35,799 nt of DNA from Actinomycetota bacterium (lineage in GTDB: Bacteria; Actinomycetota; AC-67), in assembly GCA_005884515.1 (NCBI GenBank), contig VAWS01000061.1, positions 1 through 35,799 of the forward strand, written 5' to 3'. The notes under the pieces were generated by a model, which saw only the letters and a list, made by a program, of their open reading frames with translations, searched no databases and had not been told where the DNA came from. Positions 3,464-26,293 of this stretch are shown in pieces; the stretch's first letter is position 1, and the number at the start of each line of letters is the position of its first letter. Both the position numbers and the translations under genes were made by a program.

Positions 3464-3625
3464 CCTACGACGTGCGCGCGGCGACCCCAGACGGAAGAAA
3501 AGGCGGAGCCGCCGACCCGCAGGGTATCGGCGACTCCGTGGAGGAGCTCGGTATCAGCTTCGAAAGTGAACTCTTGCGCGTGCTACCCGAACAGTCGGCC
3601 GGCCTCCTTGCGCCCTGCATAGTTA

Positions 3626-4063
3626 ATGCGGGTCATCGGCTTCCTGCTCGCGCACGGCGCGTCGGTCAGCGCACTCTTCCGCCTCCGGAAAGAGCGCGAC
3701 CGCGAGAAGATCCGCCAGCTGATCCAGTTCTCGGGGTCGACGATCAAGCTCTTCTACGTGTCACTGCTCGTGCTCGTCGTCGGAGGCGTGGGCGCCGGCC
3801 TTCAAGCGCACTGGTTCAAGCAACAGTGGATCTGGGAGGCGATCGGCGTGCTCGTCGTCATCAGCGTCGCGATGTTCGTCGTTGCGCGCCCGTACTACCG
3901 GGCGATCGCAGAAGCGACGGAGCTTCGTCCGAGCGGCGTCCCGCGTGTGAGCGACGAAGACCTCGCGTTGCGCTTGCAGTCTCCGACCCCGGTGGTCGTC
4001 GCGCTGCTCGGCTTCGGAGGGCTGCTCGTCATCTTGTGGCTGATGATCTTTAAGCCCATGTAG
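3626..4063 (+). CDS. Small integral membrane protein
   Basis: 145 aa with three hydrophobic stretches (LFYVSLLVLVVGGVGAGL, AIGVLVVISVAMFVV, VVVALLGFGGLLVILWLMIF). Confidence 0.7.
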   Translation: MRVIGFLLAHGASVSALFRLRKERDREKIRQLIQFSGSTIKLFYVSLLVLVVGGVGAGLQAHWFKQQWIWEAIGVLVVISVAMFVVARPYYRAIAEATELRPSGVPRVSDEDLALRLQSPTPVVVALLGFGGLLVILWLMIFKPM

Positions 4064-4066
4064 CTG

Positions 4067-5089
4067 CTATAACGACGTCTTCGTGAGCGGCTTCGTGGCC
4101 GGCCCGTTCAAGATCTCACCCGTGGCCCGGTATCGCGAGCCGTGGCACGGGCAGTCCCACGTCTTGTCGGCCGAGTTCCATCCCACCGTGCACCCCAAAT
4201 GCGTGCACTTTGCCGACATCGCGATCAGCTCCCCGTCGTCGTTCCGATAGGCGGCGACCTTCTGTCCGTCGACCGAAACGATCCCGCCCTCGCCCTTTTC
4301 GATCTCCGTGGAAACCTGCGTGATAGTGCGCGCAATCAACACGTCACAGCGCGCGTGCTCGAGCACCTTCTGCGGGACGGAGCCGAGGAGGAACCGGGAC
4401 GCCCCCGTCATGCCCTTGTTCCCGACCACGATCAGGTCCGCGCGCTCGGCTTCCGCGGCCTCCACGATCCTTTCCGCGGGATCGCCTCCGACGACGCGGA
4501 GCTTCGTGTCCATCCCCTCGCCCGCCGCGTCGAGCGTGTCCTTCAGGACCGGGTCCCCGGTGCTGGGGTGGCCGACGAACACCAGCGTTGCTGATGCGCC
4601 GAGCTTCCGTGCCAGATCGAGGCCTTTCCGCGCGGCGCGATCCGCGGTGGGTGACCCGTCGGTCGCTACCGCGATCGACTTGTACGACGGGCTCGGGGGG
4701 TTGTACGTGAACGGGCGCGCGCGCACGATCAAGACGTCGCACGGGGCGTGATGCGCGACACCGTGCGAAACGCTTCCCTGGAAGAACCGCTTCGTGCGGC
4801 TGAGCCCGCGGCTTCCAAGGACGATGAGGCCGGCATCCTTGCGATCGGCGATCTCAACGAGGATCTCTACGGGATCGCCTTCGTGGACTTCGGTGCTCGC
4901 GGTGACGCCCTCGGCCTTCAGCTGTTCCTTCGCCTTCCGCACGACGGCTTCGCCTTGGGCGGCGTGGCTGCAGCCGTGAACGAGGATCAGCTGCGCACGA
5001 GACGCCTTTGCGATCGCCGCTGCGACGCGCTGCGCGTGCTCCGCGGTCGGCGAACCGTCTGTGGCGCAAATGATCTTCGTGTACGGCAT
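4067..5089 (-). CDS. Tandem universal stress protein domains fused to a C-terminal Rieske [2Fe-2S] domain
   Basis: Two USP domains each with G2xG9xGS (GSRGLSRTKRFFQGS; GNKGMTGASRFLLGS), then CTHLGC...CPCHGS Rieske boxes in one continuous ORF. Confidence 0.93.
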   Translation of the reverse strand: MPYTKIICATDGSPTAEHAQRVAAAIAKASRAQLILVHGCSHAAQGEAVVRKAKEQLKAEGVTASTEVHEGDPVEILVEIADRKDAGLIVLGSRGLSRTKRFFQGSVSHGVAHHAPCDVLIVRARPFTYNPPSPSYKSIAVATDGSPTADRAARKGLDLARKLGASATLVFVGHPSTGDPVLKDTLDAAGEGMDTKLRVVGGDPAERIVEAAEAERADLIVVGNKGMTGASRFLLGSVPQKVLEHARCDVLIARTITQVSTEIEKGEGGIVSVDGQKVAAYRNDDGELIAMSAKCTHLGCTVGWNSADKTWDCPCHGSRYRATGEILNGPATKPLTKTSL

Positions 5090-5222: not shown

Positions 5223-5858
5223 TTAAGCGGCTTTCGCCTGTGCCGGATTCAACTCGGTTTCGATCTCGAGCGTGACCTTCTTGCCGACGACCACGCCGCC
5301 CGTTTCCAGAGCTGCGTTCCACGTCATGCCCCAGTCTTCGCGGTTGATCTCCGCCGTGGCGCTGAAGCCCGCAACCGTGGTTCCCCACGGCGCGCGCTCG
5401 ACGCCCTCGAACTCGACCTTCAGCTCGACCGGGCGCGTCTGGTCGCGGATCGTGAGGTCGCCTGTGACGTCCAAGCTGGTCGGACCCGTCTGCTTCACGG
5501 ACGTGCTGCGGAACGTGATCGTCGGATACTTCTCGACGTCGAGGAAGTCCGGGGACCGAAGGTGATCGTCTCGCTTCTGGTCGCCCGAGAAGATGCTCGA
5601 CGCATCGAGCGTCACCTCGACGCTGGAGGCCTCGGGCGTCTCGCCGATCTGGACCTGGCCGGAAAGCCGGTCGAAGTGACCGCGGACCTTCGTCACCATC
5701 ATGTGGCGCGCGACGAACGCAGCCCTCGTGTGGCTCGTGTCCAACGTCCACGTGCCGGGGGCCGGAGCCGCGACTTCGCCGATCTCCGTGATCTCGCTGC
5801 TAAGCGCTGTCTCTGACATCTCGGTTCTCCTCCTTCCGGCCCCTTCCGAGGCCACCAT
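5223..5858 (-). CDS. YceI-family protein
   Basis: GTWTLDTSHTRAAFVARHMMVTKVRGHFDRLSGQVQI...VTLDASSIFSGDQKRDDHLRSPDFLDVEKYPTITFRST is the YceI pattern. Confidence 0.93.
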   Translation of the reverse strand: MVASEGAGRRRTEMSETALSSEITEIGEVAAPAPGTWTLDTSHTRAAFVARHMMVTKVRGHFDRLSGQVQIGETPEASSVEVTLDASSIFSGDQKRDDHLRSPDFLDVEKYPTITFRSTSVKQTGPTSLDVTGDLTIRDQTRPVELKVEFEGVERAPWGTTVAGFSATAEINREDWGMTWNAALETGGVVVGKKVTLEIETELNPAQAKAA

Positions 5859-13727: not shown

Positions 13728-15065
13728 ATGTCGATCGACATCCGGTACGCGCGCGTCGGCCAGCAGCATGTCGCCTATGCAGTCGTCGGCTCCGGCCCGC
13801 TCAATCTGGTCCTCGCCCCGCCCATCACGTCCAACATCGAGATCCAGTGGGACGACCCGTACTACCGGCGGTTCCTGGAGCGTCTCGGCACGTCCGCAAC
13901 GGTCGCCATCTTCGACAAGCGAGGGACCGGCCTCTCCGGACCGATCCTCAACACCGGTGTGCCGACGCTCGAGCAACGCATGGACGACATCAACGCCGTG
14001 ATGGACGCGCTCCATTGGGACAACGCGTCGTTGTTCGGATACGCAGAAGGCGGCTCGCTCTGCACGCTGTACGCTGCGTCGTTCCCGGAGCGGGTGCGTT
14101 CTCTGATCCTCTGTAACGCGGCAGCGCGACTCATGAGGGCGGACGACTATCCGTGGGGCTGGATACCTGAGGCCTCGCCGATGCACGACGCGGCGCCCGG
14201 ATGGGGCAAGCCGGACTTCCGTTTCTACGAGCGCTTCGCTCCCGGGATGCGATCGCACCCCGATTGGGAGGACTTCATCATGGGCCAGGCTCGCGAGCAG
14301 CGTCACGGCGCAAGTCCGGACATGTTCCTCGCGTTGCAGCGCGTCGCGACCGAGATCGACGTCCGAGACGTGCTTCCGTCCATCCAGTGCGCGACGCTGG
14401 TCATGCATCGCAAAGACAACGACATCCTCGACGTCCGCAACGGGCGATACCTCGCCGAGCACATCCCCGACGCGAAATACGTCGAGTTGCCCGGCGCCGA
14501 CCACTATCCATGGTTCGACGACCAGGACACGATCCTCGACCAGGTGCACGAGTTCCTGACCGGGCACCAGCCTGCGCCCGAGCTGGACCGGGTTCTGGCA
14601 ACGATCCTGTTCACCGACATCGTCGGGTCGACCGCGCGCGCGGCCGATATCGGTGACCACAAGTGGAAGGACCTTCTCGGCCAGCACCATTCGATCGTGC
14701 GCAAGGAGCTCTCGCGGTTCCGGGGTCGTGAAATCGACACGGCGGGAGACGGCTTCTTCGCAACCTTCGACGGCCCGGCTCGCGGCGTTCGGTGCGCGAT
14801 GTCGATCAGAGACTCGGTGCGTTCCGTAGGGCTGGAGATACGGGCGGGCCTTCACACCGGCGAATGCGAGATCATGGGCTCGAACGTCGGAGGTCTCGCG
14901 GTGCACATCGGCGCACGGGTAGCTGCGCGCGCCGATGCCAGCGAGGTGCTCGTGTCGAGCACGGTCAAGGACCTCGTCGCAGGCTCGGGCATCAGCTTCG
15001 AAGATCGAGGCACGCATCAGCTCAAGGGCGTTCCGGACGAGTGGCACATCTTCGCGGCGAAGTGA
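13728..15065 (+). CDS. Alpha/beta-hydrolase domain fused to class III adenylate/guanylate cyclase domain
   Basis: N-terminal alpha/beta-hydrolase fold with elbow LFGYAEGGSL; C-terminal ATILFTDIVGSTARAADIGDHKW...DTAGDGFFATF...IRAGLHTGE...VHIGARVAARA. Confidence 0.93.
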   Translation: MSIDIRYARVGQQHVAYAVVGSGPLNLVLAPPITSNIEIQWDDPYYRRFLERLGTSATVAIFDKRGTGLSGPILNTGVPTLEQRMDDINAVMDALHWDNASLFGYAEGGSLCTLYAASFPERVRSLILCNAAARLMRADDYPWGWIPEASPMHDAAPGWGKPDFRFYERFAPGMRSHPDWEDFIMGQAREQRHGASPDMFLALQRVATEIDVRDVLPSIQCATLVMHRKDNDILDVRNGRYLAEHIPDAKYVELPGADHYPWFDDQDTILDQVHEFLTGHQPAPELDRVLATILFTDIVGSTARAADIGDHKWKDLLGQHHSIVRKELSRFRGREIDTAGDGFFATFDGPARGVRCAMSIRDSVRSVGLEIRAGLHTGECEIMGSNVGGLAVHIGARVAARADASEVLVSSTVKDLVAGSGISFEDRGTHQLKGVPDEWHIFAAK

Positions 15066-16254: not shown

Positions 16255-16286
16255 CAGCCCACACCCATCAGCCCACACCCATCAGC
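16253..16286. repeat. 14-bp tandem repeat ATCAGCCCACACCC (about 2.4 copies)
   Basis: ATCAGCCCACACCC at 16253-16266 and 16267-16280, then ATCAGC 16281-16286, at the hydrolase-SDR stop/MerR start junction. Confidence 0.95.
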
Positions 16287-17967
16287 GTGGCGTCGAGTCG
16301 ACGCGCGCGAGCAGCCGCATGACGCGAGGCGACAGCCGCGAGAGGAACCGAAGCGCTTTCGCTTCGGGTGCGACCGGCACGACGGCGATGTTCTCGCGCA
16401 CCGCACGCACGATCTCCGTCGCAACGCGATCGGGCGTGAAGTTCCGAAGCTGATAGATGCGGATCGCCGCCCGGCGCTGCTTCTCTTGCTCCTCGCGCGG
16501 GAGTCCGACGAAGCTGCTCGTTCGCGTGATCGACGTGTTGATAAGGCCGGGGCAGATCGCGGAAACGCCGATCCCCTTGTTCGAAAGCTCCGCGCGCAGG
16601 CACTCGCTCAGCATCAAGACCGCGGCTTTCGACGTGCTGTACGCCGGGAGCGTGCGGGAGGGGAAGAACGCGGCGGCGGAAGCGACGTTCACGATGTGCC
16701 CTCTTTCGCCGCGGTCGACCATCTGCTGTGCGAACAGCTTCGAGCCGTGGATCACACCCCAGAGGTTCACGTCGAGCACGCGACGCCAGTCGTCGAAGTC
16801 GTGGTCGAGGAACGGACCGGCGACGCCGATGCCGGCGTTGTTTACGATGATGTCGGGAACCCCGTGCTCGGTTTCGACGGCTTTCGCGAACCGCTCCATC
16901 GACTGCTGGTCGGAGACGTCGACCTCGAAGGCGAACGCGTTCGTTCCCAGCAGGCGCGCGAGGTCGGCGGTCCGCTCCGCCGCAGCCGCGTTGATGTCCG
17001 CGATAACGACTTCCGCGCCGCGTTCGGCGAACGCGAGCGCGGTCGCTCTGCCGATGCCGCTCCCCGCGCCGGTGATGACGACGAGGTTCCCTTCGAGCGG
17101 CTTCCGCTTCGCGCCCACGCGCGCGCGCTGGAGCGAGCGAGCCGGCGGCGCCCCTTCGACGTGGTCGACCAGCTCGGCGATCCAGCGCGCGACGAGGTCA
17201 GGGTGTGAGCGCTGGACCCAGTGGCCGGCGCGCACCCGTCGCCGCCAAAGGTTCGGCGAGATGTGCTCGATGCCGTCGAGCAAGGCAGGCGATACGAACG
17301 GATCGCGCGTCGGGATCACGACCTGGACGGGAAGATCGGTGTGCCCGTCTCGCGGGTTCAGCAAGCGAGAGCGCATGCTCTGCCGGTACATTCCGACGCC
17401 GTTACGCACGGTCCGTGGATCGAGACCGCGGCGTGGCGCCAGCCTCGCGACGACGCGTCCCGCCCCGGGGATGTCGAACGCCGCGATGTACCACGATCCG
17501 GCCATCTGACGGAGGAGCTGTCCGATCCGGCCCGCGCGCAGCTTCCGGCGGAGCCATCTGCCCGCGTGATCAAGGCTCGGGCCCGAGATCGACGTGAACG
17601 ATGCGATGCGGCCGCTCAAGCGAGACGTGGTCACCGCTTCCCAGCCCTGGATCGAGCCCCAATCGTGACCGACGAGGTGGACGGGCTTGCTCGGGCTGAC
17701 GGCGTCGATCACCGCTCCGAGGTCGCCCACAAGGTGCTCGAGCGAGTACGCATTCGGACCGCGGGGGGTCGACGACGCGCCGGCGCCGCGCACGTCATAG
17801 CTCACGACGTGATAGCGCGGTTCCAGCCGCTCGAACACCGGAACCCACATAGCTGATGTGTCCGGGTAACCGTGGACGAGGACGACGGTCGGACGGTCGG
17901 GGTCGCCCGCTTCGCGGATGGCCAGCTCGACGTCGCCGGAACGGACGCGACGTTCGGTCGCCAACAT
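16282..17967 (-). CDS. Alpha/beta-hydrolase (epoxide hydrolase-like) fused to SDR oxidoreductase, EphD-like
   Basis: HLVGHDWGSIQGWEAV (Asp nucleophile elbow) followed by VVITGAGSGIGRATALAF and PAYSTSKAAVLML in one 561-aa ORF; same architecture as mycobacterial EphD. Confidence 0.92.
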   Translation of the reverse strand: MLATERRVRSGDVELAIREAGDPDRPTVVLVHGYPDTSAMWVPVFERLEPRYHVVSYDVRGAGASSTPRGPNAYSLEHLVGDLGAVIDAVSPSKPVHLVGHDWGSIQGWEAVTTSRLSGRIASFTSISGPSLDHAGRWLRRKLRAGRIGQLLRQMAGSWYIAAFDIPGAGRVVARLAPRRGLDPRTVRNGVGMYRQSMRSRLLNPRDGHTDLPVQVVIPTRDPFVSPALLDGIEHISPNLWRRRVRAGHWVQRSHPDLVARWIAELVDHVEGAPPARSLQRARVGAKRKPLEGNLVVITGAGSGIGRATALAFAERGAEVVIADINAAAAERTADLARLLGTNAFAFEVDVSDQQSMERFAKAVETEHGVPDIIVNNAGIGVAGPFLDHDFDDWRRVLDVNLWGVIHGSKLFAQQMVDRGERGHIVNVASAAAFFPSRTLPAYSTSKAAVLMLSECLRAELSNKGIGVSAICPGLINTSITRTSSFVGLPREEQEKQRRAAIRIYQLRNFTPDRVATEIVRAVRENIAVVPVAPEAKALRFLSRLSPRVMRLLARVDSTPR

Positions 17968-18959
17968 CAGGCTGCCGCTTGGGCCGGCTCGTCCCAGATC
18001 CGATACGCCTTCCAGATCTGTTTCGTGAAGCCGTCGACCAGACCCAGCTCAACCGCGAGATTGCGAACCTTGGCGAGTGATGCCTTCACCTCGGCCCGCG
18101 CGCGCGGATTGTGCCGGTAGGCCTCGTCCATGACTTCGGAAGGGATGTTGAAGTGCCGCACCATCGCGCGCGACGGCGCTAGCATGATGCGCGACATCTG
18201 TCCCAGGATCATCGGGATCGCAACGCGCAGGATCCGCTTCCGGATGAAGCCGATCTGCGGCAAGCGGCGGCGTAGGTAAGAGCGCGCGAACGACAGATGA
18301 CGCGCTTCTTCCGCGACGTGGATGCGCATGATCCGCTCAGCCAGCGGATGGATGTTCTCGTCTTCGGCGAGCATCCTTCTCTGCACGTAGTCGATCGGAT
18401 CCTCACCGCCCAGGACGAAGAAGAAAAAAAGCTCCGGGAAGAACCGGCCGAGCATGGGCACGAACTGCGCCGTCAGACGGAGGATGGCAGGAAGACCGGG
18501 GATATCGAATCCGGTGCGGTTCACCAGCTCTTGGAACATCATCCCGTGATGGCCTTCTTCGATCGCCTCGTGGTAGGCATACCTGAACTCAGCAGAGCCG
18601 TTCGGGAGCTTGAACGCGTACGTGTACAACCCACGGTTGAGCAGGTTCTCGAACTGCACGCCGACCTTCGCCGCGTTCGCGAACCGATACAGGCCGATCC
18701 CGGAGCGGACCTCTTGCGACTGCGCCTTGTACCAGGGGTGCCCGCCGAGTGAGTCGATCGCGGGAACCTCCCACCGCGGATCGCTGAGATCGATCTTCAT
18801 TACGGGGTCGTCCCACTCGATGTCGATGTAGGGCTCCCAATGTTTCTCGACCGAGGCCTTCGAAAGCCGCTCGACGAGCCGCAGGTAGGCTTGCTCGTCC
18901 TTGGGCGTTTCGCGAACCTCTTGATCGACTGTCTTCGACACAGCCGTCTTAGACACCAT
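17967..18959 (-). CDS. AurF-like diiron oxygenase family protein
   Basis: YAYHEAIEEGHHGMMFQELV and HVAEEARHLSFARSYL carry the E/H ligands expected for ferritin-like AurF family proteins. Confidence 0.8.
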   Translation of the reverse strand: MVSKTAVSKTVDQEVRETPKDEQAYLRLVERLSKASVEKHWEPYIDIEWDDPVMKIDLSDPRWEVPAIDSLGGHPWYKAQSQEVRSGIGLYRFANAAKVGVQFENLLNRGLYTYAFKLPNGSAEFRYAYHEAIEEGHHGMMFQELVNRTGFDIPGLPAILRLTAQFVPMLGRFFPELFFFFVLGGEDPIDYVQRRMLAEDENIHPLAERIMRIHVAEEARHLSFARSYLRRRLPQIGFIRKRILRVAIPMILGQMSRIMLAPSRAMVRHFNIPSEVMDEAYRHNPRARAEVKASLAKVRNLAVELGLVDGFTKQIWKAYRIWDEPAQAAA

Positions 18960-19867: not shown

Positions 19868-20023
19868 CTACGGAGCCGGCGGCTCCTCGGCCCGAGGATT
19901 CGCCCTCGCCTGCTCGTCGCGCGCGTCCTCGAACGCTTGCTTGATCGTGCGGTACTTCCCGTACAGAGCGAGCAACAGATACCCGCCCGCGCAGACGAGG
20001 ATCACGATCCATCCGGCGTTCAT
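19868..20023 (-). CDS. 51-aa single-pass membrane protein
   Basis: MNAGWIVILVCAGGYLLLALYGKYRTIKQAFEDARDEQARANPRAEEPPAP; ATG overlaps the USP stop by 4 nt. Confidence 0.7.
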   Translation of the reverse strand: MNAGWIVILVCAGGYLLLALYGKYRTIKQAFEDARDEQARANPRAEEPPAP

Positions 20024-20469
20024 GGGTACGTCTTCACGATCAGCACGTCGCAGGGCGCGTGGTGCGAGATCACGTTGGGCACGCTGCCGAGCAAGAAGCG
20101 CGACGGCCCTTCCATCCCCCGGTTTCCGACGACGATCAGGTCGGCGTCCTCGAGCTCGGCCACCTTCAGGATCGTGTCGGCGGGGTCGCCCTGCTCGACT
20201 CGGGTGCGCGCGTCGACGCCCATCTCTTTCGCGACCGCAACACCGCGCTCGACGGCGCCTTCTGCCGGCGAGGCGGGACCCAGGCGCCACGCGAACTCGT
20301 CGGGGGCTTGCTCCTTCCACTGCTCGACGGTCACGGGGTCGACCGGCCGGTACACGCACATGATGACGAGCTCAGCCCCGTATGCCTTCGCGACGGTGGC
20401 AGCGTGACGCACGCCCTCGAGCGAGGGCGGCGAGCCGTCCGTTCCCGTGAGGATCCGCTTGTAGCTCAT
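20020..20469 (-). CDS. Universal stress protein (single domain)
   Basis: MSYKRILTGTDGSPPSLEGVRHA...LIVVGNRGMEGPSRFLLGSVPNVISHHAPCDVLIV. Confidence 0.93.
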   Translation of the reverse strand: MSYKRILTGTDGSPPSLEGVRHAATVAKAYGAELVIMCVYRPVDPVTVEQWKEQAPDEFAWRLGPASPAEGAVERGVAVAKEMGVDARTRVEQGDPADTILKVAELEDADLIVVGNRGMEGPSRFLLGSVPNVISHHAPCDVLIVKTYP

Positions 20470-20476
20470 GGCTCCA

Positions 20477-21364
20477 TCATGCAACACGCGGACCCGACGC
20501 GTCTCTCGCCTTCGCGCGAGCACCCCGCCGGAGCGCGCGCACATCGCCGCCGAACAAGACCTCCATCAGATCGCGCACCCCGGGCATCACCAGTGCCCGT
20601 GCGATCGAGCGGCCGGCCGGGACGCTTGCAACATCGAGCGCGCGCGGCTGTGCCATGCCCATGATCGACCGTAGGTCGCGCGGGATGATCGCGACGGCCA
20701 GCCGCACGAGCATCGAGTACGGCACGACGAATGGAAGCAGCTCGGTCGGGAACGTCGGGTGCAGCACGAAGTCGATGAGCTCGCGGCCGTACGCGCCGAC
20801 GCACAGCTGCGGTCGCATCGTCGCCCAGTAGTCGCGGAGATCGGCAACCGACGCCGGAACCCGCTCGGCCGGGACGCCGATCATCGTCGCTGCGGCAACC
20901 CCTTCGGCGAGGTATCGGTCTTGCTCTTGTTCGGTGAGTCGCCCGGCGTAGGCACGGTACGCCGCCATGTACGAGTGCCACGCCACCGAATGCACCCACA
21001 CCTGCTCGTCGACGTTCGCAGCGTCGTACTGCTTGCCCGTGACCGGGTCGATTCCTTTAACCCGCCGGTGCGCGCGCACCACCATCGCCGCCGCCTGTCG
21101 AGCAGCCTCTCGGTCGCCGAACACCGTCGCGTTGACGTATCGAGAAGTCGTGCGGAGCCGGTCGACGGGTCTGTTCCGATAGTCGCTGTGCTCGACGGTG
21201 CCCGCCGCAACGAGCGGGTGGAGCGCGCCGATGATAAGCGATCGCAACCCGCCGACGAACGCCATGGGGTGACCGACGACACGCCATGCGACCGAGGATG
21301 GACCGAACAAGCCATCGTCGCGCGCAACCGCGAGGACCGACGTGGAGGTGGCCACGGCTCTCAT
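20477..21364 (-). CDS. Oxygenase MpaB/DUF2236-like protein
   Basis: SVAWRVVGHPMAFVGGLRSLIIGALHPLVAAGTVEHSDYRNRPVDRLRTTSRYVNATVFGDREAA...VHSVAWHSYMAAYRAY. Confidence 0.85.
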   Translation of the reverse strand: MRAVATSTSVLAVARDDGLFGPSSVAWRVVGHPMAFVGGLRSLIIGALHPLVAAGTVEHSDYRNRPVDRLRTTSRYVNATVFGDREAARQAAAMVVRAHRRVKGIDPVTGKQYDAANVDEQVWVHSVAWHSYMAAYRAYAGRLTEQEQDRYLAEGVAAATMIGVPAERVPASVADLRDYWATMRPQLCVGAYGRELIDFVLHPTFPTELLPFVVPYSMLVRLAVAIIPRDLRSIMGMAQPRALDVASVPAGRSIARALVMPGVRDLMEVLFGGDVRALRRGARAKARDASGPRVA

Positions 21365-21521
21365 TATGTTTGGTCGCGAACGGATGTGTCCATCGCGCGC
21401 AGCCGCAACCGACCCGAAGCGATATTGACTCCGCGGAGGCACGCAAGAGAGACTGTTGCCCCCGAGGCGGTGGGCGCCTGACCGGGTAGATCGCAAAGCG
21501 CAGTCGTTGCATGGAGGCGAG

Positions 21522-22367
21522 GTGCCCGGAAGCGTTAGCGCACGGCCTTCAGAAGGGAACGGCGCCGTCCCAGACTCGGCGATCTCCGTTCAAGGACTAA
21601 CGAAGTCCTTCGGGCCGCAGACGATCTTCGAAGATGTTTCGATGGAAATCCCGAAAGGGCTCGTCACGATCGTGCTCGGTCCGTCTGGGACGGGGAAGAG
21701 CGTTTTCCTGAAACACTTGGTCGGCCTGCTTCGCCCCGATCGCGGACGCGTTCTAGTCGGGGAGGACAACATCTCGATCCTTCGCGGGCAAGCGCTGTAC
21801 GACGTGCGGAAGCGCTTCGGCGTGCTGTTCCAGGACGGCGCGCTGTTCGGGTCGATGACCGTATACGACAACACGGCGTTCCCGTTGCGCGAGCACACGC
21901 GGAAGCCGGAAGCAGAGATCCGTCACATCGTCATGGAGAAGCTCGACCTCGTCGGGCTGCGCGGTGCGGAGCTGAAGTTCCCAGGCGAGATCTCCGGCGG
22001 GATGCGCAAACGTGCCGGCCTTGCGCGCGCGCTCGTGCTCGACCCCAAGATCATATTGTTCGACGAGCCCGACTCCGGCCTCGACCCGGTTCGAACGGCC
22101 TTCTTGAACGAGCTGGTCCTCGACCTGAAGGCCCAAACCGGGGCAACGATGATCATCGTGACGCACCACATCCCGTCGGCGGCGCAGATCGCCGACTACA
22201 TCGGCTTGTTGTTCCGGCGGCGGCTGGTTTCCTTCGGCCCGAAAGAGAACATGTTCACGTCAAAAGATCCGGTCGTGAAGCAGTTCCTCGCGGGGGCGAC
22301 CGATGGGCCGATCGGCATGAGCGAAGAGAGAGACCGCCCGAGCGACGCTGACGGGAGCGCGTCCTAG
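21522..22367 (+). CDS. Mce/Mla-type ABC transporter ATP-binding protein (MceG/MlaF-like)
   Basis: ISVQGLTKSFGPQTIFEDVSMEIPKGLVTIVLGPSGTGKSVFLKHLVGLLRPD; atypical signature SGGMRKRAGLARALVLDPKIILFDEPDSGLDP. GTG 21522 probable start. Confidence 0.93.
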   Translation: MPGSVSARPSEGNGAVPDSAISVQGLTKSFGPQTIFEDVSMEIPKGLVTIVLGPSGTGKSVFLKHLVGLLRPDRGRVLVGEDNISILRGQALYDVRKRFGVLFQDGALFGSMTVYDNTAFPLREHTRKPEAEIRHIVMEKLDLVGLRGAELKFPGEISGGMRKRAGLARALVLDPKIILFDEPDSGLDPVRTAFLNELVLDLKAQTGATMIIVTHHIPSAAQIADYIGLLFRRRLVSFGPKENMFTSKDPVVKQFLAGATDGPIGMSEERDRPSDADGSAS

Positions 22368-23183
22368 ATGGCGGCGAGCCCGGAGACCGCCGGCCGAAGC
22401 GCCGCGCGCAGGCTGGGCCTGCCGAGCGGGCTGCTCGATCAGACCGGCCGCATGTTCTCCCTGACGTTGGACGCGTTCCAGACGATGTTGAAGCGGCCGG
22501 TGCCGTTCGAAGAGTTCGTGCGCGTGTCGTGGTTCATCGCCAGCGTCTCGATCGTTCCGGTAATCCTGGTGTCGCTCGCATTCGGGATGGTCATCGCGCT
22601 GCAGGTCGGCAACATCGCGCGACAGCTCGGCGCGTATTCGCAGACGGGTGCGGCGATGGTGCTCGCGATCGTTCGCGAAGCCGCCCCGATCGCGACCGCG
22701 TTGCTGATCGCCGGCGCCGCCGGCTCCGCGATGACGGCGGACCTGGGTTCCCGCAAGATCCGCGAGGAGATCGATGCAATGGAGGTGCTCGGCGTCGATC
22801 CCGTGCATCGCCTCGTCGTCCCTCGGATCTGGGCGTCGGTGTTCGTGGCGATCCTGCTCGACGGCTTTGTGAGCGTCGCCGGTATCGCCGGCGGCTACCT
22901 TTTCAACGTGGTGCTACAAGGCGGAACGGCGGGCGCGTATCTGAATTCGTTCAGCTTGCTCGCGCAGCCGTGGGACCTGTACTTCGCGCTGTTGAAAGCC
23001 GGCGTGTTCGGCCTCGTCGCGGCGATGGTCGCGGTTCACATGGGCTTGTCGGCGAAGGGGGGACCGAAGGGCGTCGGCGACGCAGTGAACCGAGGCGTCG
23101 TACTGACGTTCATGCTGATCTTCTTCGTCAACATCGTGTTCACCGTCCTCTACTTCCAGTTGATCCCGAACAAGCTGTCCTGA
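22368..23183 (+). CDS. yrbEA: MlaE/YrbE-family permease (first)
   Basis: Hydrophobic protein with REAAPIATALLIAGAAGSAMTADLGSRKIREEIDAMEVLGVDPVHRLVVPR. Confidence 0.93.
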   Translation: MAASPETAGRSAARRLGLPSGLLDQTGRMFSLTLDAFQTMLKRPVPFEEFVRVSWFIASVSIVPVILVSLAFGMVIALQVGNIARQLGAYSQTGAAMVLAIVREAAPIATALLIAGAAGSAMTADLGSRKIREEIDAMEVLGVDPVHRLVVPRIWASVFVAILLDGFVSVAGIAGGYLFNVVLQGGTAGAYLNSFSLLAQPWDLYFALLKAGVFGLVAAMVAVHMGLSAKGGPKGVGDAVNRGVVLTFMLIFFVNIVFTVLYFQLIPNKLS

Positions 23184-23184
23184 T

Positions 23185-24036
23185 ATGGCCGCGCGCGTTC
23201 AGCCCGTCCTGACGTTCCCACGGTTCATGGTGAGCCGCCTGACGCACGGGATCGAGGCGATCGGCGAGCAGATCACGTTCTACATCCGCACGCTCGTCGA
23301 CTGCGTGCTCGTCGTTCCGCGGCATCCGGGTGAGGTCTTGCGGATCATCAGCGAGATCACATGGGGTTCCGGCGCGCTCATCGTCGGAGCCGGCACAGCC
23401 GGCGTGATCTTCTTCATGGCATTCATCACCGGTGGCCTCGTCGGGCTCGAAGGGTTCAAGGGGCTGGAGCTGATCGGCGCGCAGGCCTTCTCCGGCTTCG
23501 TGTCGGCGTTCGGCAACACCCGCGAGATCACGCCGATCATCGCCGGCGTCACGCTTGCGGCACAGGTCGGCGCCAGCTTCACCGCCGAGCTCGGTGCGAT
23601 GCGCATCAACGAAGAGATCGACGCGCTGGAGGTCATGGCGATACCGACGCGGCGCTACTTGGTGTCGAGCCGCGTCGTTGCCGCTTTGGTGGCGATCACG
23701 CCGCTGTACCTGATCTCGCTCTTCGCGTCGTACCTCGCGACCGAGGTTGCCGTCGTCAGGTTGCAAGGATTATCCGCAGGGACGTTCGCCCACTACTTCA
23801 GCCTCTTCCTGCCGCCGATCGACGTCTTCTACTCCCTGCTGAAAGCGTGGATCTTCGCTGCGGCGATCGCGCTGATCCATTGCTACTACGGCTACAACGC
23901 GCGGGGCGGACCGGTCGGCGTCGGCGTCGCGGTCGGAAAGGCCATCCGAACGAGCATCGTCGTCATCCTGGTGCTGAACTTCGCGCTCTCGGCGCTGATG
24001 TGGGGTATCGCGGACACGGTGCGGATCGCGGGATGA
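23185..24036 (+). CDS. yrbEB: MlaE/YrbE-family permease (second)
   Basis: REITPIIAGVTLAAQVGASFTAELGAMRINEEIDALEVMAIPTRRYLVSSR. Confidence 0.93.
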   Translation: MAARVQPVLTFPRFMVSRLTHGIEAIGEQITFYIRTLVDCVLVVPRHPGEVLRIISEITWGSGALIVGAGTAGVIFFMAFITGGLVGLEGFKGLELIGAQAFSGFVSAFGNTREITPIIAGVTLAAQVGASFTAELGAMRINEEIDALEVMAIPTRRYLVSSRVVAALVAITPLYLISLFASYLATEVAVVRLQGLSAGTFAHYFSLFLPPIDVFYSLLKAWIFAAAIALIHCYYGYNARGGPVGVGVAVGKAIRTSIVVILVLNFALSALMWGIADTVRIAG

Positions 24037-25250
24037 GCGCGGCGAGGCGCAACCTCGTCCTCGGCTTGGCCGGCATCGTGTTAACCGTCGGGTTCGTTTT
24101 CTACGTCTTGAGCGGCCTCGGCGGGCACCCCGGCGGGCCGTTCCAAGTGAAGGTTACGTTCGCGCGCACCGGCCAGCTGCTGCGCGTCTCCGGTGACGTC
24201 AAGCTCCGCGGTGTGCAGATAGGCCAGATAGCGAAGATCCAACGCGAGCCGAACCGGACGGCGATCGTGACGCTCGCGATCGACCCAGGGATGGAGATCC
24301 CAGAAGACGTCACCGCGATGATCGGCGCGAAGACGCTGTTCGGCGAGAAGTTCGTCGCCTTGGTCGATCCGACGCATCCGAACGGAAAGCTGCTCCGCAA
24401 CGGTGATCAGATCCCCGAGAGCCGCACCACGGCACCCTTCGAGCTCGATCAGGTGATCTCCGCTCTCGTTCCGATCCTCGACTCGGCGAAACCTGGGGAC
24501 CTCGGTGGTGCGCTGCACGCGCTGGCGGTGGGACTGGCCGGGCAAGAGCAAGACGCGCGCGACGCGATGGACAAGGGAGTCACCGCGCTTGCGGTCCTTG
24601 CCGCGCACAAAGGCGACCTGGACCGGGTGCTCGCAGGGCTGGACACGTCGACCGGTGCGCTCAGCAAGGCATCACCCGATCTCGTCGCGTCGCTCAACAG
24701 CCTGGACAAGCTGAGCAAGCAGCTCGTCACGGACTCGACCGACGTGCAAGCATTCTTGCGAGACGCGCCCACCGTGCTGAACAAGCTGGCCGACCTCGTC
24801 GACAACCACTACCAAGACCTCGTCGACATCTCCGTCAAAGGCGCCGACATCCTCGACATCGTCGCGGCGCACCGCAGTGCGTTGCCGTCGACGGTGGCCG
24901 CGTTGAAAACGTTCACCCAAGACTGGGACACGAACCTGTCGATCCCGTGCACGAACTCAGCAGGGCAGACCGTCGGCCAGCTGCACCCGTCGCTCGAAGG
25001 ATCGACGTGCTGGCAGCTGTGGGTGCTGAGCGCCGAGCAGACGAAGAACCCCGGCGGGTATACGGGTGACGGACCGACGCCCGCGCCCGCGATGGCGTCG
25101 AGCGCCGATCCGCGCATCCTCGCCGCATACCGCGCGCAAGTTGGCCAGCTGCTCGCACTGCCGTTCGGTACCCAACCGAGCGACGTGGCGCTCCTTCTGA
25201 ACGCCGCGCTCGTCGACGGACGCGGCCTGATCCCGGAGCGTCTGCTGTGA
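24033..25250 (+). CDS. mceA: Mce-family protein A-position
   Basis: N-terminal TM plus MCE domain VKVTFARTGQLLRVSGDVKLRGVQIGQIAKI; 4-nt overlap with yrbEB. Confidence 0.9.
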   Translation: MSAARRNLVLGLAGIVLTVGFVFYVLSGLGGHPGGPFQVKVTFARTGQLLRVSGDVKLRGVQIGQIAKIQREPNRTAIVTLAIDPGMEIPEDVTAMIGAKTLFGEKFVALVDPTHPNGKLLRNGDQIPESRTTAPFELDQVISALVPILDSAKPGDLGGALHALAVGLAGQEQDARDAMDKGVTALAVLAAHKGDLDRVLAGLDTSTGALSKASPDLVASLNSLDKLSKQLVTDSTDVQAFLRDAPTVLNKLADLVDNHYQDLVDISVKGADILDIVAAHRSALPSTVAALKTFTQDWDTNLSIPCTNSAGQTVGQLHPSLEGSTCWQLWVLSAEQTKNPGGYTGDGPTPAPAMASSADPRILAAYRAQVGQLLALPFGTQPSDVALLLNAALVDGRGLIPERLL

Positions 25251-26293
25251 AGCTGCGCGGAGTTCTGTTCAAGCTCGCGATCTTCACCGCGGCGACGCTT
25301 GCAGTCACGGTCATCCTCGCATCGCAGATCGGGAACTTCGCACTGCTGCGCGCGCGCTACTCGATTCAAGCGGCGTTCAACGACGCCACCGGCGTTGCCG
25401 CGGGGGACCCGGTAACACTGGCCGGGGTCAAGGTCGGCAAGGTCGACGGCGCGCGCGTCGATCACGGCATCGCGATCGTGAAGCTCGCGATAGACAAGAG
25501 CGTCAAGCTACCGAAGGCGACCCATATCGAGATCCGTTATCGCAACCTGCTCGGCTTGCGCGTCGTGAACCTGGATCCCGGAACGGGGGCCGCTCCCTAC
25601 CTCTCACCCGGCGACTTGGTTCCCACGACGCAAACCGAGGGGCCGCTCGACCTGGACACGATCTTCAACAACCTGAGACCGCTCCTTACCGGCATCAACC
25701 CGTCCGACATCAACGCGCTGAGCGAAGCTCTGGTGCAAGCGATCGCACCGCACAAGGGCGACATCGACGCGATATTGAGCGACACCTCGAAGCTGCTCGG
25801 AACCCTTTCGACGAAAGACGCACAGATCGGCAGCCTCGTCGACGGGCTGAGCACGGTATCGACGGCCGTCGCCGATCAACGCGTCCAGCTCGAGCAACTC
25901 CTTTCCAATCTCGCCACGATCGCAGACACGCTCGCCTCGGATTCGGGGCAGCTCGACCGCGTGTTGATCAACCTGAACACGGCTACCGGCGAGCTCGCGA
26001 AGCTGGTCAAGACGAACAGGGCCTCGCTCGAGCGGGACATAGGCAACGTGGCGACGCTGCTCGAGTTGGTGCGCAAGCATCAGGCCGACCTCGTGCAGAT
26101 CCTCCAGCACCTCGACGACGTCCAGCGCGCGACGCTTAAAGCGATGTCGTACGGCGAGTGGGTAAACCTTTACATCCCCGCGTTCTGCCTCGCCGGGACG
26201 TCCGGGTGCGAGAACGCCGTTTCGTCCGGCTCGGCCGCGGGACAGCCGGATATCACGTCGATCCTGTCGGGCCTGCCGGGAGGGAAGCCGTGA
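25247..26293 (+). CDS. mceB: Mce-family protein B-position
   Basis: IQAAFNDATGVAAGDPVTLAGVKVGKVDGARV, long helical C-terminus; 4-nt overlaps both sides. Confidence 0.9.
   Translation: MKLRGVLFKLAIFTAATLAVTVILASQIGNFALLRARYSIQAAFNDATGVAAGDPVTLAGVKVGKVDGARVDHGIAIVKLAIDKSVKLPKATHIEIRYRNLLGLRVVNLDPGTGAAPYLSPGDLVPTTQTEGPLDLDTIFNNLRPLLTGINPSDINALSEALVQAIAPHKGDIDAILSDTSKLLGTLSTKDAQIGSLVDGLSTVSTAVADQRVQLEQLLSNLATIADTLASDSGQLDRVLINLNTATGELAKLVKTNRASLERDIGNVATLLELVRKHQADLVQILQHLDDVQRATLKAMSYGEWVNLYIPAFCLAGTSGCENAVSSGSAAGQPDITSILSGLPGGKP

Follow-up and report, generated by a model that had tools for sequence, protein, structure and literature searches.

Why two universal stress protein (USP) domains should be joined to a Rieske iron-sulfur domain, and what the resulting protein does, are questions raised by a gene in the 35,799-bp stretch of DNA analyzed here (the window), which comes from an actinomycetotal genome that is 83% complete (2.39 Mb). 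The gene (4067-5089) is a single uninterrupted frame of 340 aa plus stop, as the initial annotation had it, to which can be added that it lies on the minus strand, with its ATG at 5089 and its stop at 4069-4067. Pfam assigns Usp (PF00582) to two stretches of the protein (E 3.9e-58, 196.4 bits; gathering score, 24) and Rieske to residues 260 to 336 (E 2.4e-15, 56.6 bits; gathering score, 20.3). USP domain 1 (residues 3 to 123; 4721-5083, minus strand) contains D11 and the loop G92-x2-G95-x9-G105-S106, and USP domain 2 (about residues 136 to 256; 4322-4684, minus strand) contains D144 and G223-x2-G226-x9-G236-S237; both have the Asp and the G2xG9xG(S/T) motif of ATP-binding USPs and are predicted to bind nucleotide. 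The Rieske domain (4082-4312, minus strand) has both of the cluster boxes previously noted, C295-T-H297-L-G-C300 and C313-P-C315-H316-G-S318-R-Y320, and with the C-x-H and C-x2-H ligands of the Rieske family (PF00355; here C295, H297, C313, and H316) it is predicted to hold a [2Fe-2S] cluster, with C300 and C315 as the disulfide cysteines. The protein has no transmembrane (TM) segment (maximum 19-residue hydropathy, 1.16), and an AlphaFold model from three sequences only (pLDDT 65.3) recovers two USP folds in tandem and a Rieske fold.

Upstream on the same strand is a YceI-family gene (5223-5858, minus strand; Pfam E 1.3e-53). Its co-transcription with the USP-Rieske gene is possible at the genus level only, the linkage being kept in the same-genus locus (L162) and absent from the loci of other relatives. 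Elsewhere, the window codes for two alpha/beta hydrolase fusions, one with an adenylate/guanylate cyclase domain (13728-15062, plus strand; 445 aa) and one with a short-chain dehydrogenase (16285-17967, minus strand; 561 aa). An Mce-type lipid uptake operon begins with genes for an ABC ATPase, a pair of MlaE permeases, and an MCE protein (21456-26290, plus strand). A second USP gene, with a single domain (20023-20544), lies between genes for an AurF-type N-oxygenase (17970-18959, minus strand) and an MPAB/Lcp-type oxygenase (20480-21496, minus strand).

The USP-Rieske fusion is not peculiar to this contig. Its codon-position GC content (0.65/0.50/0.85) is typical of a gene, and in a genome of the same genus the fusion recurs, 95% identical and with no internal stops. 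In an even draw of 397 genomes from Actinomycetota, 31 contain matches at an E value of ≤1e-40, a few of them partial or cut by contig ends; these span at least seven families, and one relative belongs to a class in which 22 of 27 genomes have a match. Usp and Rieske are both present in all 25 aligned relatives (25/25), and none of the 33 sequences that reach the Rieske domain departs from it at any of the four cluster ligands, at either disulfide cysteine, or at Ser318 (the CPCHGS serine). Given this spread, the dual-domain relatives, and the invariant ligands, the fusion is old and under selection. A stop or frameshift between the USP and Rieske parts, which the initial annotation gave as grounds for refutation, is not seen in the genus mate, and a chimera, frameshift, or assembly join is ruled out by the 95% identical copy together with more than 30 relatives. 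A search of plasmids returned Rieske-domain matches only and no USP-Rieske fusion. The ATP motifs, described previously as both intact, are so in the window copy; across the family the USP1 loop is loose (Ser106 in 15/35 sequences, Gly95 in 30/35) and the USP2 loop is mostly kept (G223, G226, and D144 in 35/35, G236 in 26/35, and S237 in 30/35).

What the fusion may do is best read from features that the initial annotation did not include, since most of the functional information lies in a membrane partner and in the relatives bearing a reductase or a cupredoxin. By Pfam, Pyr_redox_2 and Reductase_C are not in the window protein; in six relatives the USP-Rieske frame extends into an NAD(P)H-ferredoxin reductase with these two domains (L137, L139, L143, L147, and L154, at 762 to 786 aa, and L136, which is cut by a contig end), and three loci (L149, L151, and L157) have a separate adjoining reductase gene of the same type. 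The reductase half is of the HcaD/AndAa type, with its best matches among the ferredoxin-NAD(+) reductases of dioxygenase systems. Loci L158 and L161 have instead a gene resembling Si-specific NAD(P)(+) transhydrogenase, which at L161 (5560-6964, minus strand) is apparently in three pieces. The source genome of the window has one Reductase_C gene, unlinked and on contig C55, whose product shares 48 to 53% identity with the reductases that are fused or adjacent in relatives. The frame of this gene (L169, 4012-6072, minus strand) extends past Reductase_C into the gene for an ABC-transporter ATPase, with which it is apparently not in frame, likely reflecting a missing stop or a frameshift.

The membrane partner is encoded in the window by a gene (3626-4063, plus strand) that converges on the USP-Rieske gene, 3 bp from its stop, and specifies a DUF2269-like multi-helix membrane protein of 145 aa. 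This is a conserved neighbor, adjoining the USP-Rieske gene in 30 of 31 judgeable loci (35 examined) in two arrangements, either upstream in the same direction (18 loci) or downstream and convergent (12 loci). At three of the other loci the contig ends at the expected site (L135, L137, and L146; the contig edge at L137 still shows the cupredoxin end of the membrane gene), and a fourth (L164) is without a Rieske domain; L159 is the only judgeable locus that truly has no membrane gene beside the USP-Rieske gene. Adjacency retained in two arrangements favors function over inertia. Genome-wide, the USP-Rieske protein and the membrane protein each occur in 31 of the 397 genomes, with 30 shared, and the exceptions are a contig edge (G256) and a genome with the membrane protein only (G073); the Fisher value of 8.5e-43 ignores shared ancestry and is not to be taken literally. 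At L148 (6141-6611 and 8007-8486) and also L153, copies of the membrane-protein gene flank the USP-Rieske gene on both sides.

The window copy of the membrane protein matches DUF2269 (PF10027) at 22.7 bits, below the gathering score of 28, and several relatives score above it (37.2 bits in G095). An AlphaFold model from three sequences only (pLDDT 66.8) has four long helices, and none of the PDB neighbors of this shallow model is convincing. His8, His19, Met92, and Met149 (A5 numbering) are invariant in the copies that adjoin USP-Rieske, the one exception being the window copy, from which His8 is missing; the window gene is without the start of TM1 and has a TAG at the family-invariant His8 site (window 3560-3640). 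This may be a real truncation or an assembly error, which look alike here because the same-genus copy is cut by a contig end. Among five paralogs located away from USP-Rieske (L185, L186, L187, L188, and L190), four keep the His and have Ala at position 92, weakening the idea that H19 and M92 must act together as ligands. Several of the paralogs adjoin genes for LLM-type flavin oxidoreductases or cupins.

In one clade the C terminus of the membrane protein is a cupredoxin domain (amicyanin match, E 8.4e-7), with a complete set of His, Cys, His, and Met ligands in 12/12 copies; it is absent from the window copy. The tree places all of the reductase fusions in this cupredoxin clade, and the other clade, which includes the window, has neither a fused or linked reductase nor a cupredoxin. 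Charged loops after TM1 and TM3 point to an N-out/C-out topology; the cupredoxin would then lie on the outside.

The architecture, the ligand conservation, the fusion and adjacency of the reductase, the adjacency of the membrane gene, and the cupredoxin fusion are all observed directly in these genomes, and a Rieske protein joined to USPs, encoded almost always beside a membrane protein, and sometimes fused to a reductase suggests an electron-transfer chain tuned by nucleotide. We give an even chance to the reading that this is a cytoplasmic Rieske carrier with a tandem USP nucleotide module, fed by a reductase and working with the adjacent DUF2269-like membrane protein; as predictions from the genomes, the carrier role and the membrane partnership are both well supported. 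NAD(P)H electrons would enter through the HcaD/BphA4-type flavin reductase that is fused or adjacent in relatives, with the stand-alone C55 reductase perhaps the source in the window genome, and would pass to the Rieske [2Fe-2S] cluster, then to the membrane partner, and in one clade on to the cupredoxin, which is predicted to face outward. The two USP domains would most likely tune this transfer to the adenine-nucleotide state. We infer the direction of electron flow, the gating by USPs, the cofactor of the membrane protein (if any), and the final acceptor. Of the two roles proposed at the outset, that of a USP-gated electron carrier thus gains on the carrier side, from the fused or adjacent reductases and the invariant ligands, and gating stays plausible from the presence of the domains by itself; a redox-responsive stress protein finds no direct support.

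Several points count against the chain. Neither a linked reductase nor a cupredoxin is present in the window's clade, the window membrane gene is without the first invariant His, and USP1 nucleotide binding is doubtful in many relatives. Adjacency of the two genes is not proof of interaction, and the membrane protein is a candidate partner. The bc1/b6f-type box, if it confers a high potential, would be unusual for an NAD(P)H-fed carrier; the Rieske disulfide, Ser, and Tyr have been given as the cause of the high potential in bc1 clusters, but these effects are not universal (PMC3758308), so the box predicts potential only weakly. A more specific version of the chain is a speculative extension that we think unlikely: electrons from NAD(P)H would go through the flavoprotein and the Rieske cluster on the inside to a heme-binding DUF2269-type four-helix protein and then to the outward cupredoxin, at a rate that adenine nucleotides control through the USPs. 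The heme residues would be H8, H19, M92, and M149 (A5 numbering), an idea that has the conserved His and Met as its sole basis and is weakened because paralogs carry Ala in place of Met92.

Three other functions are each unlikely. The protein could be a soluble ferredoxin for cytoplasmic oxygenases, supplying a non-heme oxygenase, or an enzyme of that sort, with electrons from the reductase while the membrane protein acts as an accessory, as the dioxygenase-system type of the reductase half and the diiron AurF-like and MPAB/Lcp-type enzymes encoded in the window would suggest; however, no oxygenase recurs beside the gene among 37 loci, where the membrane protein is the only recurrent neighbor, and the box has the bc-type disulfide cysteines that dioxygenase ferredoxins usually are without. 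A quinone-linked module, with quinone rather than heme bound by the DUF2269-like protein and Rieske exchange at the inner membrane face as a minimal analog of the Rieske/cytochrome b pair, also seems a rather poor prospect. It would account for the Ser and Tyr of the bc1/b6f-type box, for the membrane gene adjoining in 30 of 31 judgeable loci, and for the upstream YceI-family gene, a family that includes isoprenoid-binding members, but the membrane protein has no recognizable quinone site, the YceI linkage is restricted to the genus, and the Rieske domain would be on the cytoplasmic side, the reverse of bc1. Nor do we expect the protein to be a redox sensor whose cluster responds to oxidants or redox state and alters USP-mediated signaling through the membrane protein with no steady electron flow. 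The window-clade copies, with no linked reductase, would suit such a sensor, and a regulatory role is common for USP domains; six relatives have a catalytic reductase fused, however, and in one clade the partner bears a copper carrier, so electron transfer fits better than sensing. The chance that the fusion is accidental, or an assembly artifact with no function, is negligible, as nothing speaks for it beyond the rarity of the architecture and it occurs with invariant ligands in at least seven families as well as in the genus mate.

The reductase-fed carrier with a membrane partner can be set beside several known systems. The domains are all of known families, and full-text searches of the openly accessible literature found no account of a USP-Rieske fusion or of its partnership with DUF2269. 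The C-terminal domain has its best matches in soluble b6f/bc1 Rieske domains (Chlorobaculum 8hn2 and PetC), with which it shares the ligands, the disulfide cysteines, and the Ser and Tyr of CPCHGSxY, but it has N-terminal USPs and neither a TM anchor nor a neighboring cytochrome b gene. Identity as a bc1/b6f Rieske subunit was rejected, as the protein misses the NCBIfam cutoffs (PetC, 67.3 versus 250; Rieske_proteo, 45.5 versus 97.4) and has no N-terminal TM anchor. The closest Rieske sequences without USPs are those of YhfW-type FAD-dependent oxidoreductases, which are 50 to 60% identical over the domain (an example is in L076); these enzymes likewise have a C-terminal Rieske domain, but a DAO-type flavoprotein takes the place of the USPs, and the window protein is not of this type. 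The HcaC/HcaD and BphA3/BphA4 ferredoxin-reductase pairs of dioxygenase systems, and Rieske-reductase fusions such as AIFM3, resemble those relatives in which Rieske is joined or linked to Pyr_redox_2 and Reductase_C, and they differ in having no leading tandem USPs, membrane partner, or disulfide-type box; the window protein also has no linked reductase.

For the membrane partner, the nearest parallel is PuuD, a urate oxidase (DUF989) reported to have distant similarity to DUF2269 (PMC4562309). Both have an N-out/C-out TM domain, as predicted for the partner, and a C-terminal extracytoplasmic carrier, which is a cytochrome c in PuuD and a cupredoxin in one clade of the partner; PuuD has eight helices, whereas the partner has four. 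Kinship with PuuD/DUF989 (PF06181) was set aside at an hhalign probability of 0.4% from small alignments, and PuuD is still a useful analogy, as a membrane domain of obscure origin that hands electrons to an outside carrier. The USP-Rieske partnership provides a functional lead for one branch of the uncharacterized DUF2269 membrane proteins.

The N-terminal 255 residues have their best sequence and fold matches in the tandem USPs Rv2623, TTHA0350, and AF USP 3loq, which also contain two ATP-motif USP domains but stop after the second, where the window protein adds the Rieske domain. USPs are widespread, but little is known of their biochemical role. The USP pair of this family is tied covalently to a defined redox cofactor and genetically to a membrane protein and a flavin reductase, so that an effect of nucleotide on the USPs could be read directly as reduction of the cluster.
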